51,523 nt of DNA from an uncultured Bacteroidota bacterium (GTDB lineage Bacteria > Bacteroidota > Bacteroidia > Flavobacteriales > Flavobacteriaceae), in NCBI GenBank assembly GCA_902609185.1, contig CACLQX010000003.1:1-51523 (forward strand), read 5' to 3'. Positions 8,965 through 30,596 of the stretch are shown piece after piece; within the stretch, counting starts at the first letter, position 1; the number at the start of each line of letters is the position of its first letter. A program made the translations under genes and the position numbers. The notes below the pieces were generated by a model that was not told the origin of the DNA, made no database searches, and worked only from the letters and a program-made list of their open reading frames with translations.

Positions 8965-10048
8965 GTGGTAACATCAGATCAAATTAAAGATTTAATCGAA
9001 CGCCTTGGTGCTTTAAGGAGGTATCTTTGACCTAAACGAAAAGAATAAAAGCATTTCTGAATTAGAAAATAAAACAATCCAAAACGATTTTTGGAAAGAT
9101 TCGAAAAAAGCTCAGCTGATTTTAAAAAAACTTAGTTTAACAAAAACTAAAGTATCTGAATTTAAAGAAACATCCGAATTATGTGATGAGTTAGAGGTAC
9201 TTTATGAGTTTTTTAAAAATAAAGAAATTGATGAAGTAGAGATTAATAAGGCTTTCAATAGTGCAAAGGAAAGCTTGGAGTCCCTCGAATTTAAAAATAT
9301 GCTTTCAAGTGAAGGTGATGAAATGTCAGCAGTTGTTCAAATAACAGCAGGTGCAGGTGGGACTGAAAGTTGTGATTGGGCTCAAATGATCTCAAGAATG
9401 TACTTGATGTGGTGCGAAAAAAGAAATTTTAAAACCAAAGAATTAAATTGTATTGATGGAGATGTTGCTGGCATAAAATCCATCACAATCCAAATTGAGG
9501 GGGAATACGCATTTGGTTGGCTTAAAGGAGAAAATGGTGTCCATAGACTAGTTAGAATTTCTCCATTTGACAGTAATGCAAAAAGACATACTTCTTTTGC
9601 ATCGGTTTATGTCTACCCACTGGTGGACGATAGTATAGAAATTGAAATCAATAATTCTGAAATTGAGTGGGAAACCATGAGATCAAGTGGAGCAGGTGGA
9701 CAGAGTGTTAATAAAATTGAAACAGCTGTGCGATTAACACATAAACCAACTGGGATAATTGTTGAGAACTCAGAAACGAGATCTCAACTTGACAATAAGA
9801 ATAAAGCAATTTTATTACTTAAATCGCAACTTTACGAGATTGAATTAAATAAAAAGCTCCAAGCAAGGAAAGAAATAGAAGAAAACAAAAAGAAAATTGA
9901 ATGGGGATCGCAAATAAGGAATTATATACTTCATCCTTATAAAATGGTTAAAGATGTAAGAACAAATATAGAAACAACGGATGCTGTTGGTGTTCTAAAT
10001 GGTGATATAGAAGGATTTTTAAAATCTTATCTTCTAAATTTAAACTAA
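8965..10048 (+). CDS. prfB: peptide chain release factor 2, programmed +1 frameshift (CTT TGA C)
   Basis: GTG start at 8965: [20 protein letters not shown] then TGA at 9028-9030. A +1 shift at CTT(9025-9027)/T gives GAC CTA AAC... = [24 protein letters not shown], continuing in frame with the track ORF at 9275 (RF2 motif [11 protein letters not shown]). Confidence 0.97.
9016..9031 (+). promoter_or_regulatory. RF2 recoding signal AGGAGG-TAT-CTT-TGA-C
   Basis: AGGAGG at 9016-9021 is the stimulatory Shine-Dalgarno-like element, 3 nt before the CTT slip codon and TGA. Confidence 0.95.
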
Positions 10049-10283: not shown

Positions 10284-11672
10284 ATGGAAAAAAAATTTAG
10301 AGTTGAATCTGACACTTTAGGTGAAGTTAAAATAGATCACAAAGCTCTCTGGGGGCCACAAACTCAAAGGTCAATAAATAATTTCAAAATTGGTCAGCCA
10401 TATTCAATGCCTATTGAAATTATTTATTCATACGCAATTTTAAAAAAATGTTGTGCAATCGCAAATAATGAATTAAATAATCTTGATAAAAGAAAAATGA
10501 AATTAATTTCAGAAATATGCGATGAAATTTTAAACAACAAACATAATCTTGAATTTCCATTAGTTGTTTGGCAAACAGGCTCTGGAACACAAACTAACAT
10601 GAATATTAATGAAGTAATTTCAAATAGAGCAAACTTATTAATTGGTAAAACACTTTCTGATTCAAGATATATAAAAGCTAATGATGAGGTAAACATGTCT
10701 CAATCATCTAATGATACATTTCCAACAGTTATAAATATTTCTGTAACTAAGCTCATACATGAAAAATTTATTCCATCAATTGAATCATTTATAAAAATTC
10801 TTAAAATAAAAAAAGAAGAATTTAATAGTGATATTAAAATTGGTAGAACACACATGATGGATGCGACTCCTATTAGCCTGGGTCAAGAATTTTCTGGTTA
10901 TGAGGCTCAAATGAAATTTGGATTGAAGGCATTGAAAAATACTCTCATGCATTTAAAACAACTTGCAATTGGTGGAACTGCAGTTGGTACTGGACTTAAT
11001 GCACCTGCTGGATTTGATAAAATTGTGGTGAAAAATATTTCTAATTTTACAAAAATTAAATTCGAAGTTGCAGAAAATAAATTTGAAGCAATTGCATCAA
11101 AAGATGCCCTAGTTGAAACTCATGGGGCACTAAAACAGATTGCTGTCTCTCTTTTTAAAATCGTTAATGATATAAGACTTTTGGGAAGTGGTCCAAGATC
11201 TGGATTTGCAGAACTTATTTTACCTGCTAATGAACCTGGAAGTTCGATTATGCCTGGAAAAGTAAATCCAACTCAGTGTGAAGCCGTATCTATGGTTTGT
11301 ACACAGGTGCTTGGAAATGATACAACAGTTAGCTTTGCAGGAAGTCAAGGTCACTTAGAACTTAATGCATTCAAGCCTGTTATTGCTAATAAATTGATTG
11401 AATCCATTAATTTGTTATCTGATTGTATGGAAAGTTTTAATAAAAACTGTTTAAATGGTTTAAAGGCTAATAAAATAAAAATCAACCAACATCTCAACAA
11501 CTCATTAATGCTTGTAACAGCACTCAATAAAAAAATAGGGTATTACAAAGCAGCCAAAATTGCAAATGAAGCTCACAATAATGGCACCACTCTTGAGGAA
11601 GAAGCAGTAAAGTCAGGTTATGTTACTAAAGAACAATTTAAAGACTGGGTAAACCCTGAGAATATGGTTTAA
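10284..11672 (+). CDS. fumC: class II fumarate hydratase
   Basis: 462 aa; ALWGPQTQRSINNFKIG, GSGTQTNMNINEVI, GSSIMPGKVNPTQCEA. Confidence 0.97.
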   Translation: MEKKFRVESDTLGEVKIDHKALWGPQTQRSINNFKIGQPYSMPIEIIYSYAILKKCCAIANNELNNLDKRKMKLISEICDEILNNKHNLEFPLVVWQTGSGTQTNMNINEVISNRANLLIGKTLSDSRYIKANDEVNMSQSSNDTFPTVINISVTKLIHEKFIPSIESFIKILKIKKEEFNSDIKIGRTHMMDATPISLGQEFSGYEAQMKFGLKALKNTLMHLKQLAIGGTAVGTGLNAPAGFDKIVVKNISNFTKIKFEVAENKFEAIASKDALVETHGALKQIAVSLFKIVNDIRLLGSGPRSGFAELILPANEPGSSIMPGKVNPTQCEAVSMVCTQVLGNDTTVSFAGSQGHLELNAFKPVIANKLIESINLLSDCMESFNKNCLNGLKANKIKINQHLNNSLMLVTALNKKIGYYKAAKIANEAHNNGTTLEEEAVKSGYVTKEQFKDWVNPENMV

Positions 11673-11848: not shown

Positions 11849-12766
11849 TCAATTTAATGACCCTAGCAGTTTTTCTCTCCAGTTAGTCCAATTATACTTT
11901 TTTGAAAAATAAAGAAGAATTAAAATTTGTAAAGGAATTGATGTAAGAAACATGATTGACATATTTGGTTCACCAACATATTTGAGTAATGAATCAGTTT
12001 GAAGAACAGTCCAATCAGCAGTCATCAGCAAAATACCAATAAAATTATTCCCAAAATGCATACCCAAGGCAAGTTCTAAACCATCATCCATTAGTGTGCA
12101 TATTCCCCATACAAGTCCCATAATAAAGTATGCACCAAGAAAACCATAACCCATTTTATCAATCTCAGGATTAGCAAGGTGTAATAAAGCAAACAATAAA
12201 GTGGGAATTAAAAGTGCAAGAAGTCTACTTTTAGTAGTAATTCCTATCCCTTGTAATAAATAACCTCTTACAAGATATTCTTCAAAACTGGTTTGAAAGG
12301 GTAATAAAAATATTGCTATTAGAGATAAATAAATAAAAGATTGTGGCTTAAAATTAAACTCATAAACACTTGGATCGTACAAATAAGCAACTAACATCCC
12401 GATCGCATTAACAGTTGATATCACAAAAAAACCATTGAATATTCTTTTAAAATCAACTTTATCTCTTGATGTAGTTAAGGACTTTATTGTTTGTTTATGA
12501 ACAACTTTAACAGTAAAAAAAATTCCAATCAGACCGACCAAAAAGGTTATACAGAAGAGTGCTAAACCAACATTATAGTTTGGAAATGCACTTAAAAAAT
12601 TTGATTCGTTTAAAGTTTGTAATTTGTCTAGGTCTGCAACAGAGAATAGACCAACTAATAATGGAATAGCACCTAAAAACTGCCAAAAAACAACTATTAT
12701 TAAAGGACCAACCAAGAGATATCTCCACCACTCATTTTGTGTATTTTTAACTTTTTCTATAAACAT
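11849..12766 (-). CDS. CPBP family (CaaX protease/Rce1-like) intramembrane metalloprotease
   Basis: 305 aa, multi-TM; EExxxR (SFEEYLVRGYLLQG), FxxxH (FALLHLANPE) and HxxxN (HFGNN) motifs. Confidence 0.9.
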   Translation of the reverse strand: MFIEKVKNTQNEWWRYLLVGPLIIVVFWQFLGAIPLLVGLFSVADLDKLQTLNESNFLSAFPNYNVGLALFCITFLVGLIGIFFTVKVVHKQTIKSLTTSRDKVDFKRIFNGFFVISTVNAIGMLVAYLYDPSVYEFNFKPQSFIYLSLIAIFLLPFQTSFEEYLVRGYLLQGIGITTKSRLLALLIPTLLFALLHLANPEIDKMGYGFLGAYFIMGLVWGICTLMDDGLELALGMHFGNNFIGILLMTADWTVLQTDSLLKYVGEPNMSIMFLTSIPLQILILLYFSKKYNWTNWREKLLGSLN

Positions 12767-14127
12767 TATGTTAAAAATAGATTAAAGAAGATTACAATAA
12801 ACAACCCATAAAAAATTTGAAGGTATATGGTCTTTAGATTAGAGTGGATTAGTTCTCTTTTGTCATAATTTTTGTACAAATTAATAAAAGCATAAAATCC
12901 ATATGTAAAAAGGGCAACGTTTCCAACTATGAAAATATTTTTATCAAAATCTCCAAACATTTCAAGTGAAGGAATTAATAAAATCGAGGAAATAAAAGCT
13001 GCAATTAATATTAATAAATATCCCCAGCGAGCATTTTTCTTTCCAAAGGTTACAATTAAATGATTTTTACCTGTCTTTGCATCGCTTATAGTATCTGGGT
13101 ATTGGTTTATATAGAGTATATTGGTGGTCAATAATCCATGGGGGATTCCTACTAATAATGCCAAATAAAAAAGATCAGAAAAAAGTTCAATAGTAGATGA
13201 TGAAATAGCGAACAATGCTCCTAGTGTCATCAAGGGCCCAAATGACAAAAATATGGCTAACTCACCCAAACCTCTTCTCGAGACTAATCTTATTGGTCTG
13301 GCGGTATAAAAATATCCTAAGAACCCACCTAAAAAGCCAACAATAAGTGCATGAAGAGCATTTGAAAATTCACCTGTAACATAAATACTGTTAAACAATA
13401 AACCAGATGTTACAAATAAAGTTATAATTAACATTTTTCTTGCCAATGAAAGAGTTCCTTTGTGAGTAATTAATCCTAATTCAACCGCTCTACTTCCACC
13501 CGAAAGTTGTGCACCTTCGAGCATTGTCGAATTCAAACCTGCATTAAAATATTCAGTATTTGCTCCATCTGTACCATCTTTCACATCATAATAATCATTA
13601 AACAAGTTTGATGCAACGTGTAAAAAAACAATTCCAAGTGAACACAAAACCAATGAAAATGGACTGAAAAGATTTTCACCAATACCAGCTAAAAAAGCTG
13701 CGACAGCAAAAATCGGGAATAGTGATGCGCTCGTAAAACCTCCCCTGGTTATTGCAAAAGCCCATTTTATAAAAATTGTCGAAAACTTAATTGGAATATT
13801 GACTTCCTCTTCAATTGGAACAGTGATACCGCAATAACCCGTCTGAGGATTATTTTTCCCATTTGCAAAAGTGGGGGTTATCTTAATTTGAGCGTTGAAC
13901 TTTTTTCCATTTTTATTTTTGAAATATGTTTTCGTGGAATAGTGGCCATTTTTATTTGCTTTAGATAACCACATACCTACATTTTGAATTACTATTTCTC
14001 CATCAGAGAATAAGGAAACTCTTTTTTTTCCAACAAGTTCTTCCTTGCTGTAACCAAATAATTTTTCACCATCAGGGTTTATAGTCTCAATGACACCCTC
14101 CATGTCACAAATTATAACACTTTTCAT
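12766..14127 (-). CDS. PAS domain - UbiA/MenA-family prenyltransferase fusion
   Basis: 453 aa single ORF: residues ~1-105 PAS-like (GVIETINPDGEKLFGYSKEELVGKKRVSLF...NGKKFNAQIKITPTF); residues ~115-453 UbiA with NDYYDVKDGTD and YPDTISDAKTGK Asp-rich motifs and multiple TM segments. Confidence 0.88.
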   Translation of the reverse strand: MKSVIICDMEGVIETINPDGEKLFGYSKEELVGKKRVSLFSDGEIVIQNVGMWLSKANKNGHYSTKTYFKNKNGKKFNAQIKITPTFANGKNNPQTGYCGITVPIEEEVNIPIKFSTIFIKWAFAITRGGFTSASLFPIFAVAAFLAGIGENLFSPFSLVLCSLGIVFLHVASNLFNDYYDVKDGTDGANTEYFNAGLNSTMLEGAQLSGGSRAVELGLITHKGTLSLARKMLIITLFVTSGLLFNSIYVTGEFSNALHALIVGFLGGFLGYFYTARPIRLVSRRGLGELAIFLSFGPLMTLGALFAISSSTIELFSDLFYLALLVGIPHGLLTTNILYINQYPDTISDAKTGKNHLIVTFGKKNARWGYLLILIAAFISSILLIPSLEMFGDFDKNIFIVGNVALFTYGFYAFINLYKNYDKRELIHSNLKTIYLQIFYGLFIVIFFNLFLT

Positions 14128-14189
14128 TGATTAAAATTAAAGTGCAAATTTATAAATTAATAATAGTATTCTTTGGATAAATTAATAAA

Positions 14190-16091
14190 TTATTTAACTT
14201 CTTCAAAATCAACATCCTGGACATCATCATTATCATCTTTTTTCGATGATTTTTTTTGATCACTTGGATTTGCTTGAGCTTGATTTTCAGCTTGAGCTTT
14301 GTATAACTCCTCAGATGCATTTTTCCAAGCTTCATTAACCTTTTCAAGTTCTGACTTTATATTATCAACATCTTTGGATTCATGAGCTTTCTTTAGAGAT
14401 TTTATTGCATCCTCAATTGCCTGCTTTTTTTCATCTGGGAGCTTATCACCATGCTCCTTAAGCTGAGATTCAGTTTGAAAAATCATTGCATCGGCACTAT
14501 TGATAGTATCCGCATCATCTTTCAACTTTTTATCAGAATCAGCATTTGCCTCTGCTTCTTGTTTCATCTTTTCGATCTCTTCTTCCGTAAGGCCTGAAGA
14601 TGCTTCAATCCTTATGTCTTGTGATTTATTTGTAGCCTTATCAAGTGCAGTGACATGTATAAGTCCATTCGCATCTATATCAAAAGTAACTTCAATCTGT
14701 GGTGTTCCTCTTGGTGATGGGGGTATGCCGTCGAGGTGGAATCGTCCAATTGTTTTATTATCAGTAGCCATAGCTCTATCACCCTGCAAAACATGAATCT
14801 CAACGGACGGCTGATTATCAGCAGCTGTAGAAAAAATCTGTGATTTTTTTGCAGGAATAGTGGTGTTAGATTCAATAAGTTTTGTCATAACTCCACCCAT
14901 AGTTTCTATACCTAATGAAAGTGGAGTAACATCTAAAAGTAGAACGTCCTTTACATCCCCTGTCAGAACTCCACCTTGTATTGCAGCACCAACTGCAACA
15001 ACCTCGTCTGGATTAACACCTTTAGAGGGTTTTTTTCCAAAAAACTTTTCAACCTCATTTTGTATAACTGGGATTCTGGTAGATCCACCGACAAGAATTA
15101 TTTCATCGATATCACTTTTGTTTAGAGACGCATCTTTTAAAGCTTTTTTTACAGGTTCCATTGATCTTTTAACTAAATCAGAACTCAATTGCTCGAATTT
15201 TGCCCTTGTTAATGTTTTAACAAGGTGTTTTGGACCAGAGTCCGTAGCTGTTATGTATGGTAGATTAATTTCAGTTTGAGTAGACGCTGAAAGTTCTATT
15301 TTCGCTTTTTCAGCAGCCTCCTTGAGTCTCTGTAGTGCCATTGGGTCTTTTCTTAAATCTACACCTTCCTCTTCCTCATATTCAAACGACATCCATTGTA
15401 TGATCGCATCATCAAAATCATCACCACCTAACCTTGTATCACCATTCGTAGATAGTACTTCAAAAACACCATCACCAAGTTCTAAAATAGAAATATCAAA
15501 TGTACCTCCACCCAGGTCATAAACTGCAATTTTTTGATCTTTACCTGACTTATCTAAACCATAAGCAAGTGCTGCAGCGGTTGGTTCATTAATTATTCTT
15601 TGAACTTTTAGACCAGAAATTTCCCCTGCCTCTTTGGTTGCCTGTCTTTGGGCATCGTTAAAGTATGCTGGTACAGTAACCACTGCCTCATTCACAGAGG
15701 ATCCTAGGTAATCCTCTGCTGTTTTTTTCATTTTTTGCAAAATCATTGCAGATAGCTCTTGAGGAGTGTACAATCTTCCGTCAATATCTACCCTAGCAGT
15801 ATCATTATCACCTTTGACAACTTTGTAGGGTGATCTTTTTGCATCTTCTTTTGACTCAGAATATTTACTACCCATAAATCTTTTGATTGATGAAATGGTC
15901 TTTGTTGGATTGGTTACAGCTTGTCTTTTAGCTGGATCCCCTACTTTAATTTCTCCACCATCAACAAAACCAATTACAGAGGGAGTTGTTCGTTTTCCTT
16001 CGGCATTAGGAATTACAACAGGTTCATTTCCCTCCATCACGGAAACACATGAATTAGTTGTACCTAAATCTATACCAATTATTTTACTCAT
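14190..16091 (-). CDS. dnaK: molecular chaperone DnaK (Hsp70)
   Basis: [21 protein letters not shown]..., [15 protein letters not shown], acidic C-terminus [12 protein letters not shown]. True start is the ATG at 16091, not the ORF-track start at 16157. Confidence 0.98.
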
Positions 16092-16112
16092 AGTTATATT
16101 TTTTAAAAATTT

Positions 16113-16128
16113 AGCAATTCCTGTGCCA
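16113..16128 (-). promoter_or_regulatory. putative sigma-54 (-24/-12) promoter of dnaK
   Basis: Reverse strand TGGCACAGGAATTGCT: exact TGGCAC-N5-TTGCT; -12 element about 22 nt before the dnaK ATG. Confidence 0.7.
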
Positions 16129-16139
16129 TTGAAAATTAG

Positions 16140-16153
16140 TGACACTTTGACAG
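16140..16153 (-). promoter_or_regulatory. CTGTCAAAGTGTCA direct-repeat element upstream of the dnaK promoter
   Basis: TGTCA-N3-TGTCA direct repeat, 11 nt upstream of the -24 element. Confidence 0.4.
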
Positions 16154-16199
16154 TCATAATATTTTTTTATTTATTTATTTTTACGACACATTATTAATT

Positions 16200-17003
16200 A
16201 TGGAATACAAACGAATTACTACTAAAACATTGTTAGAAATGAAAAACAATAATGAGAAGATTTCGATGTTGACAGCATATGACTATACTTTTGCAAAAAT
16301 TATTGATCAATCTGATATCGATGTTATTCTTGTTGGTGACTCAGCATCAAATGTTATTGCTGGTAATGAAACAACAGTTCCAATTACTCTAGATGAGATG
16401 ATTTATCATGCTAAATCTGTTGTTAAAGCAGTCAAAAGAGCTTTAGTTGTGGTTGATCTACCATTTGGAACTTATCAGTCCAACCCAAAGCTAGCCTTGA
16501 GATCTGCAATAAGAATCATGAAGGAATCTGGAGCACATGCAGTTAAGTTGGAGGGTGGCAGTGAAATTAAAGACTCAGTTTCAAAAATTATTAAAGCAGG
16601 TATTCCAGTAATGGGACATCTAGGTTTGACTCCTCAGTCAATTTATAAATTTGGCACTTACTCAGTAAGAGCTAAAGATAAAAATGAAGCTGATGAGCTA
16701 ATTAATGATGCGATACTTCTTGAAGAAATTGGATGTTTTGCAACTGTACTTGAAAAAATACCCTCAGAATTAGCCAAAAAAGTATCCACAAAAGTAAAAT
16801 ACCCCTTGATTGGAATTGGTGCTGGTAACCAAGTTGATGGACAAGTTTTAGTAATGCATGACTTGTTAGGTCTGACTACTGAATTTAACCCTCGATTTAT
16901 TCGCAGATATTTAAATCTGAATAATCAAATTGTTGATGCAATAAAATCTTATGTATCAGACGTTAAAAAACTAAATTTTCCAAGTGATGATGAAATGTAC
17001 TAA
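16200..17003 (+). CDS. panB: 3-methyl-2-oxobutanoate hydroxymethyltransferase
   Basis: 267 aa; [63 protein letters not shown]. Confidence 0.97.
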
Positions 17004-17009
17004 GATTTA

Positions 17010-17672
17010 ATGGAAAACATAATTTTTGAGGACAATCATCTACTTATAGTTGGTAAAAAATCTACAATTCCAGTACAATCAGATATCTCAGGTGACAAGT
17101 GTCTGCTAGACTACAGTAAAGATTATATTAAAAAAAAATATGATAAAAAGGGTAATGTTTTTTTAGGTTTAGTTAACAGAATTGATAGACCAACAAGCGG
17201 TATTGTTATAATGGCAAAAACAAGTAAATGTCTGAGGAGAATGAACGAAAAGATTAGGTTAAGAAAAATTAAGAAAAAATACTGGGTATTAGTTCAAAAA
17301 GCTGACTTAAAAAACAAAGGTATTTTAAAAAATTTTTTGAGAAAAAATCAAAAGATAAATAAATCTTTTGTTGTTGAGAAAAAATCTAAAAATGCAAAGG
17401 AAGCAATCCTTGAATATAAAACTTTAAAAAAATTAAGAAACTACCTGTTTTTAGAAGTTATTTTAATAACGGGGAGACATCACCAAATAAGAGTCCAATT
17501 CTCGAATCTTGGATCACCTGTTCGTGGTGATGTAAAATATGGGGCAAAAAAAGCGTTAAATGATAGAAGCATTAGTTTACATTCGAGAGAAATAGAATTT
17601 GAACATCCTGTGAATAATGAATTAATGAATCTAAAATGTAAGCCACCAGATGAATTCATATCCAAAATATAA
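17010..17672 (+). CDS. RluA-family pseudouridine synthase
   Basis: 220 aa; NRIDRPTSGIVIMAKT (HRLDRxTSG motif, H->N), ITGRHHQIRVQF. Confidence 0.92.
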   Translation: MENIIFEDNHLLIVGKKSTIPVQSDISGDKCLLDYSKDYIKKKYDKKGNVFLGLVNRIDRPTSGIVIMAKTSKCLRRMNEKIRLRKIKKKYWVLVQKADLKNKGILKNFLRKNQKINKSFVVEKKSKNAKEAILEYKTLKKLRNYLFLEVILITGRHHQIRVQFSNLGSPVRGDVKYGAKKALNDRSISLHSREIEFEHPVNNELMNLKCKPPDEFISKI

Positions 17673-30131: not shown

Positions 30132-30596
30132 ATGAAGTATATAAATTTTCTTTTTCTATCTCTATTATTTTTAACAGCTTGCAAATCACAAACTAATGAA
30201 ATTAACTACGAAGTAATTAAAACTGATAATGAGTGGAGAGAGCAACTTGATCAAATGTCCTATCTGGTTTTAAGAAAAGCTTACACTGAAAGACCTTACA
30301 CTGGTAAATATGATAATTTTTATGAAAAAGGCACATATCACTGTGCAGGTTGTAATGAACCACTTTATAAATCCAATAATAAATACAACTCCTTTTGTGG
30401 TTGGCCGAGTTTTGATAAAGAAATTAATGATAAATTAGTTTATGATGTCGATTATAAATTGGGTTATCCCAGAACAGAAATAAAATGTAAGAAATGTGGT
30501 GGTCATTTAGGTCATGTATTTAGCGATGGGCCAAAAGAAACTACGGGCATTCGACATTGTGTAAACTCTGCTGCATTAATTTTTAAAAAATCATGA
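30132..30596 (+). CDS. msrB: peptide-methionine (R)-S-oxide reductase, predicted lipoprotein
   Basis: Signal/lipobox MKYINFLFLSLLFLTAC; CAGC / CKKCGGHLGHVFSDGP / GIRHCVNSAAL MsrB motifs. Confidence 0.94.
   Translation: MKYINFLFLSLLFLTACKSQTNEINYEVIKTDNEWREQLDQMSYLVLRKAYTERPYTGKYDNFYEKGTYHCAGCNEPLYKSNNKYNSFCGWPSFDKEINDKLVYDVDYKLGYPRTEIKCKKCGGHLGHVFSDGPKETTGIRHCVNSAALIFKKS

Follow-up and report, generated by a model that had tools for sequence, protein, structure and literature searches.

A PAS-UbiA fusion gene in the men operon slot of small-genome marine Flavobacteriaceae

Both domains of the protein described here are of known kinds. PAS sensors such as CPS_1291 (3lyx), the FAD-PAS domain of NifL (2gj3) and the haem PAS domains of DosP and FixL act on a kinase, cyclase or phosphodiesterase output, and the UbiA prenyltransferases AfUbiA (4tq4) and UBIAD1 (8djk) possess no sensor domain. 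Two bacteria with incomplete quinone pathways are also relevant. Porphyromonas pasteri lacks menF, menD, menH, menC, menE and menB, has menA and ubiE, and its growth is supported by DHNA (PMC9704088). In Nitrospira a complete Ubi or Men pathway is absent, and methyl-plastoquinones were then found (PMC12324825).

The DNA analysed, referred to as the window, is a stretch of 51,523 nucleotides from an uncultured member of the Flavobacteriaceae. A preliminary description had pointed to a PAS sensor module fused to a UbiA-family prenyltransferase. The encoded protein, PAS-UbiA, shares fold and profile matches with the PAS sensors, but its output would be a prenyltransferase, and it has a conserved cysteine pair where known sensors have a haem or LOV ligand. 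With AfUbiA and UBIAD1 it has the fold (Foldseek) and both Asp-rich motifs in common, whereas the acceptors differ and the identity is low (16-20%). The genomes possessing the fusion, termed carriers, resemble P. pasteri in that head-group genes are absent while a prenyltransferase and UbiE are present; P. pasteri, however, retains a gene annotated menA, and the free-living marine carriers have PAS-UbiA instead (PMC9704088). As in Nitrospira, neither known quinone pathway is complete in the carriers, but their UbiE is not MpqE by the family cut-off and HPPD is missing in most of them (PMC12324825). In PAS-UbiA a PAS domain would be coupled straight to a membrane enzyme of lipid synthesis, which would make it one of few such cases. 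In a search of open-licence papers we found no description of a PAS plus UbiA fusion, of its conservation or of the in-situ replacement of a men operon.

Structure of the gene and its two domains

The coordinates given in the preliminary description (Table 1) were right, and its reading frame is indeed uninterrupted: from ATG through TAA it encodes 453 amino acids with no internal stop or frameshift, including between the domains. The strand, which had been left out, is minus; the plus strand of the same interval is full of stops. Full-length PAS-UbiA reading frames recur in independent assemblies at 43-95% identity. A misassembly artefact can be ruled out, as both the fusion and its locus recur in many independent assemblies.

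Table 1. Features of the PAS-UbiA locus (positions in the window)
Feature	Position	Strand	Remarks
fumC-type fumarase	10284..11672	+	downstream border of slot
CPBP/Rce1-like intramembrane protease	11849..12766	-	orthologue sits inside the men operon of non-carriers
PAS-UbiA fusion gene	12766..14127	-	453 aa; ATG at 14127; stop TAA at 12768-12766
UbiA membrane prenyltransferase domain, MenA-like	12769..13785	-	residues 115-453
Second Asp-rich motif NQYPDTISDAKTGK	13066..13107	-	residues 341-354; D345, D349, K354 invariant
First Asp-rich motif NDYYDVKDGTD	13567..13599	-	residues 177-187; N177, D178, D181, D187 invariant
PAS domain	13813..14127	-	residues 1-105; complete alpha/beta PAS core in model; N-terminal extension absent
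Invariant Cys99 codon	13831..13833	-	last PAS strand; 45/45 readable sequences
Invariant Cys7 codon	14107..14109	-	PAS strand A-beta; 46/46 sequences
Short gap to dnaK	14128..14189	-	MenI-like hotdog thioesterase here in most carriers, lost in window
dnaK	14190..16157	-	upstream border of slot
panB + RluA-type pseudouridine synthase	16200..17672	+	order beyond dnaK matches men-operon non-carrier

The N-terminal module had been called PAS-like, and this is borne out by PAS_9 of Pfam (residues 3-92; 32.8 bits against a curated cut-off of 27), sensory_box of NCBIfam (40.9 against 22.9 bits), a PAS-only profile compared with the PDB (top match PAS domain 3lyx, E 1.8e-7) and Foldseek. An AlphaFold model, proposed as a check and built from a 20-row alignment (mean pLDDT 83), contained both folds, with a PAS-type alpha/beta structure at residues 1-105 followed by UbiA-type helices. 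Foldseek matched this model to the PAS structures 3lyx (TM 0.79-0.80 over the target), 2gj3 and 1vb6 and to the UbiA structures 4tq4 and 8djk. The description of a full UbiA domain with both Asp-rich motifs was likewise confirmed by PF01040 (70.2 bits against a cut-off of 34.2) and by a 20-sequence alignment, in which the residues of N177-D178-x-x-D181...D187 and N341-Q-x-P-D345-x-x-x-D349 are invariant. Both Pfam families were matched in all 20 sampled relatives.

It had further been suggested that a PAS module on such an enzyme implies direct redox, light or ligand control. The fusion has proved ancient and conserved, and control of this general sort is plausible, but two of the forms it might take are not favoured. 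There is no photoactive cysteine in an NCRFLQ-type motif, the corresponding region reading GKKRVSxFS, which makes a LOV-type light sensor unlikely. Nor does any histidine of the PAS domain, as a candidate axial ligand, reach 90% conservation in 46 sequences, and a haem of the FixL/DOS kind is therefore unlikely too. Cys7 and Cys99 are the only invariant cysteines of the domain. The last PAS strand and A-beta are neighbours in the PAS fold, so that a thiol switch between the two residues is conceivable.

Many PAS domains serve for dimerisation rather than sensing, which speaks against gating of the enzyme by this one. Whether the module is structural or dimerising only, with no sensory role, must be considered in this light; we regard this as a minority possibility. 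It would fit the want of a conserved LOV cysteine or haem histidine and the fact that no cofactor emerged. On the other hand, the set of fixed residues and the two invariant cysteines speak for a sensory role, and the PAS domain is better conserved than the catalytic UbiA domain (69 versus 57% among marine genera, 55 versus 41% across families), which argues against a dispensable add-on.

Distribution and phylogeny

The full fusion was present in 22 of the 23 genomes of the window's genus, the sole genome without it being 56% complete. Sixteen of 400 sampled Flavobacteriaceae genomes were carriers. Three belong to the window's genus and the other 13 are spread over seven further genera; genome sizes are 1.2-2.1 Mb, and in one of these 13 only a fragment, at the end of a contig, is present. 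The remaining genomes of this sample gave partial matches of about 30% identity, mostly to UbiA-only proteins. Across the phylum, 396 genomes were surveyed, and full-length fusions turned up also in two distant families, here f25 and f15, with genomes of 2.2-3.3 Mb (one example is L026 on contig JANJTN010000196.1). The taxonomic spread within the sampled genomes of the phylum, which the preliminary description had wished to see surveyed, comprises eight genera of Flavobacteriaceae and these two families. Close relatives come from marine Bacteroidetes single cells and MAGs, e.g. AG-337-I22, MED-G60 and MED-G14, and no plasmid copies were found. A MAG titled Gammaproteobacteria (L025, PBKO01000002.1) has the order dnaK, PAS-UbiA, CPBP, fumC and a protein 79% identical to that of the window; the probable explanation is mis-binning of a Bacteroidota contig.

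A tree built from 62 UbiA domains by a quick method, with some long branches, placed all 23 PAS-UbiA sequences in a single clade (SH-aLRT 91). The sister of this clade is MenA; CtaB and the geranylgeranylglycerol-phosphate type lie apart from it. The nearest relatives of the marine PAS-UbiA group were those of f25/f15, and vice versa. MenA (TIGR00751) is also the top-scoring named family for the catalytic part, and the layout of the motifs is shared. PAS-UbiA differs from MenA, however, in falling below the curated cut-off of this equivalog (63.3 against 102.15 bits; likewise for all carriers), in forming its own clade, in its N-terminal PAS domain and in the absence of DHNA-making enzymes from its carriers. 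One could imagine that a host's own MenA had been fused to a PAS domain. This was ruled out: the UbiA parts of the proteins from the marine genera, f25 and f15 fall into a single clade, separate from the MenAs of the family, so the fusion was not built from a local menA. The simplest reading would be that it was acquired from elsewhere.

The genomic slot

In the window and 20 other loci the gene order is dnaK, (hotdog thioesterase), PAS-UbiA, CPBP, usually followed by fumC on the opposite strand. The thioesterase is MenI-like according to a family scan; it is kept in 9 of 15 carriers and absent from the slot of the window. CPBP and the stop codon of PAS-UbiA overlap by 1 nt (TAATG) in the window, and the two genes are close together in most carriers, which suggests that their translation may be coupled. 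In the gap before dnaK, TAAATTTG is a putative promoter element matching what we take to be the Bacteroidota -7 consensus. Scans for sigma-70 promoters and terminators, neither of them suited to Bacteroidota, gave results at chance level.

The same borders enclose a men operon in the non-carrier G115. Between fumC and dnaK-panB-rluA this genome has menE, CPBP, menC, menA, menB, a CvfB-like gene, menD, menF and a MenI-like thioesterase gene, together with a few unrelated genes. Its MenD, MenF, MenB and MenA exceeded curated NCBIfam cut-offs, while MenC and MenE were assigned by best family only. Of this operon, the slot of the carriers retains only CPBP and (usually) the thioesterase, plus PAS-UbiA. 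Because the borders are shared, CPBP and the thioesterase can be understood as remnants of the men operon, with PAS-UbiA standing where the lost genes were. In other words, MenA in the non-carrier and PAS-UbiA in the carriers occupy the same operon slot, and this ties PAS-UbiA to quinone synthesis.

Quinone genes of the carriers and possible roles of PAS-UbiA

Quinone genes were compared between 17 marine carriers and five small-genome non-carriers, all Flavobacteriaceae. As the carriers are MAGs or single-cell genomes of 55-95% completeness, absences rest on many genomes rather than a single closed one; for the genome of the window, at 57% completeness, gene absences are judged from relatives, while the slot itself was read directly. 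MenD exceeded its cut-off in none of the 17 carriers (best score 67.6 against 244.2 bits, the level of acetolactate synthase) but was present in all five non-carriers; in one of these, G035, it was cut by a contig end in a first search and scored 391 bits in another. Canonical MenA was similarly distributed (0/17 versus 5/5), and MqnA/MqnD (PF02621) were found in none of the 17 marine carriers and none of the five non-carriers. When 15 carriers were searched with a concatenated men-operon query, MenF, MenB, MenC and MenE gave paralogue-level matches only, UbiE was found in 14 and CPBP in all 15. The canonical menA that had been supposed to lie elsewhere in the genome is therefore absent from the sampled carriers, as are the other head-group genes, and PAS-UbiA looks like a replacement for menA, not an extra regulated copy.

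The UbiA proteins above the cut-off in the carriers searched were PAS-UbiA, CtaB and, in some genera, one of the geranylgeranylglycerol-phosphate type; there were no others. The last of these was ruled out as a MenA: it scores with geranylgeranylglycerol-phosphate transferases and adjoins a GHMP kinase gene. This arrangement was observed at L110, L113-L117 and L123, and within the window's genus only in G084. CtaB, the haem synthase, is encoded beside oxidase-like subunits (named from sequence), which suggests that the carriers respire aerobically; a quinone would then be expected.

By their gene content these small-genome marine Flavobacteriaceae, many of them open-ocean MAGs or single-cell genomes, should be unable to make the menaquinone of their relatives. 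Either neighbouring organisms would supply them with a precursor of their quinone, or they would use a quinone that nobody has sought, and the PAS-UbiA gene is a marker and likely a key enzyme of such menaquinone-gene-poor bacteria. On balance we lean towards PAS-UbiA being a MenA-like quinone prenyltransferase under PAS regulation, which took the place of menA as the head-group genes disappeared. An ancestor would have lost the head-group genes of the operon and its own MenA, PAS-UbiA taking over. The enzyme would attach the polyprenyl tail to a quinone head group, either imported (e.g. DHNA) or made via an unrecognised route, and UbiE would then methylate the product. The cytosolic PAS domain at the N-terminus probably gates the prenyltransferase and adjusts its rate. 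Its signal, the weakest step of the proposal, would most likely be the redox state of the quinone/thiol pool, sensed via Cys7/Cys99 or a bound ligand. The score below the MenA family cut-off (63 versus 102 bits) counts against this explanation.

A specific form of it, which we consider only tentatively, is that the carriers are auxotrophic for the naphthoate head group, PAS-UbiA acting as a functional MenA which together with UbiE converts imported DHNA to ordinary menaquinone. The product would then be nothing new. P. pasteri is an exact precedent in the Bacteroidota (PMC9704088), and the residual gene set of the carriers matches it if PAS-UbiA stands for MenA. The ongoing loss of the MenI-like thioesterase, kept in nine of 15 carriers, is expected once DHNA-CoA is no longer made. 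However, salvage alone does not require that MenA be replaced by a protein of another clade, and free-living cells would have to live on the free DHNA of the open surface ocean. Moreover, f25 also lacks MenD despite genomes of about 2-3 Mb.

That MenA itself was displaced, and not just deprived of substrate, speaks for another possibility: PAS-UbiA may prenylate a non-naphthoate acceptor from an unrecognised route, yielding a benzoquinone or another different respiratory quinone. Homogentisate, the acceptor in plastoquinone synthesis, is one candidate. 4-Hydroxyphenylpyruvate dioxygenase (HPPD) exceeded its cut-off in all six f25 genomes tested, in one non-carrier and in two of the 17 marine carriers (both g138), and fell below it in f15; homogentisate as the common precursor is unsupported in the 15 marine carriers without HPPD. 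In four f25 loci (L172, L174, L175 and L176) a homogentisate 1,2-dioxygenase-like gene, named from sequence, lies a few genes from PAS-UbiA. Nitrospira offers a precedent for such a quinone (PMC12324825). Yet the top-scoring families for PAS-UbiA are MenA types, and UbiE is far from an MpqE-type methyltransferase: it scored 161-183 bits in the three marine carriers scanned and 218 in G475 of f25, against a cut-off of 335, whereas all three marine proteins exceeded the TIGR01934 and NF001244 cut-offs. The neighbourhoods of UbiE were variable and contained no candidate for a head-group gene. A new head group appears rather unlikely to us. Less likely still is the elaborate version, a third type of quinone biosynthesis for this branch of the Bacteroidota, in which the men head-group genes were deleted, a ready-made PAS-UbiA fusion was acquired, and a non-menaquinone respiratory quinone is made from an unrecognised precursor, the output being tuned post-translationally by a redox-sensing PAS cysteine pair.

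The f25 and f15 genomes differ in gene content. MqnA/MqnD (PF02621) were found in both f15 genomes and weakly in three f25 genomes. Four of six f25 genomes tested have a separate MenA-like protein besides PAS-UbiA, its gene adjoining UbiE (e.g. following ubiE in G502, locus L249). In G475, a single-contig f25 genome, none of MenD, MqnA/D and MenA exceeded its cut-off; UbiE, HPPD and PAS-UbiA were present, as were two further UbiA-family proteins. At its ubiE locus (L285, G475:C1:597000-616999) the MenA-like gene after ubiE is missing. Since PAS-UbiA coexists with a MenA-like gene in f25, its function there may differ from that in the marine carriers. This coexistence speaks against extending the preferred explanation, a MenA-like prenyltransferase that displaced menA, to f25. 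It would agree with PAS-UbiA making some other prenyl lipid and sitting in the men slot by chance, finished quinone coming from outside or from unknown genes, as would the lack of men neighbours outside the Flavobacteriaceae. But the men genes were replaced exactly, MenA was lost in 17 of 17 carriers and UbiE was retained, which such an enzyme would leave without a prenylated substrate; we think a role outside quinone synthesis improbable.

Two further observations concern the rest of the window. Around 30132-30596 there are two methionine-sulfoxide-reductase-B-like reading frames, seemingly close together. The reading frame of prfB (release factor 2; 9275-10048) has a late start. A programmed frameshift is usual in prfB, and the frame may be missing an N-terminal part that lies upstream, behind such a frameshift.
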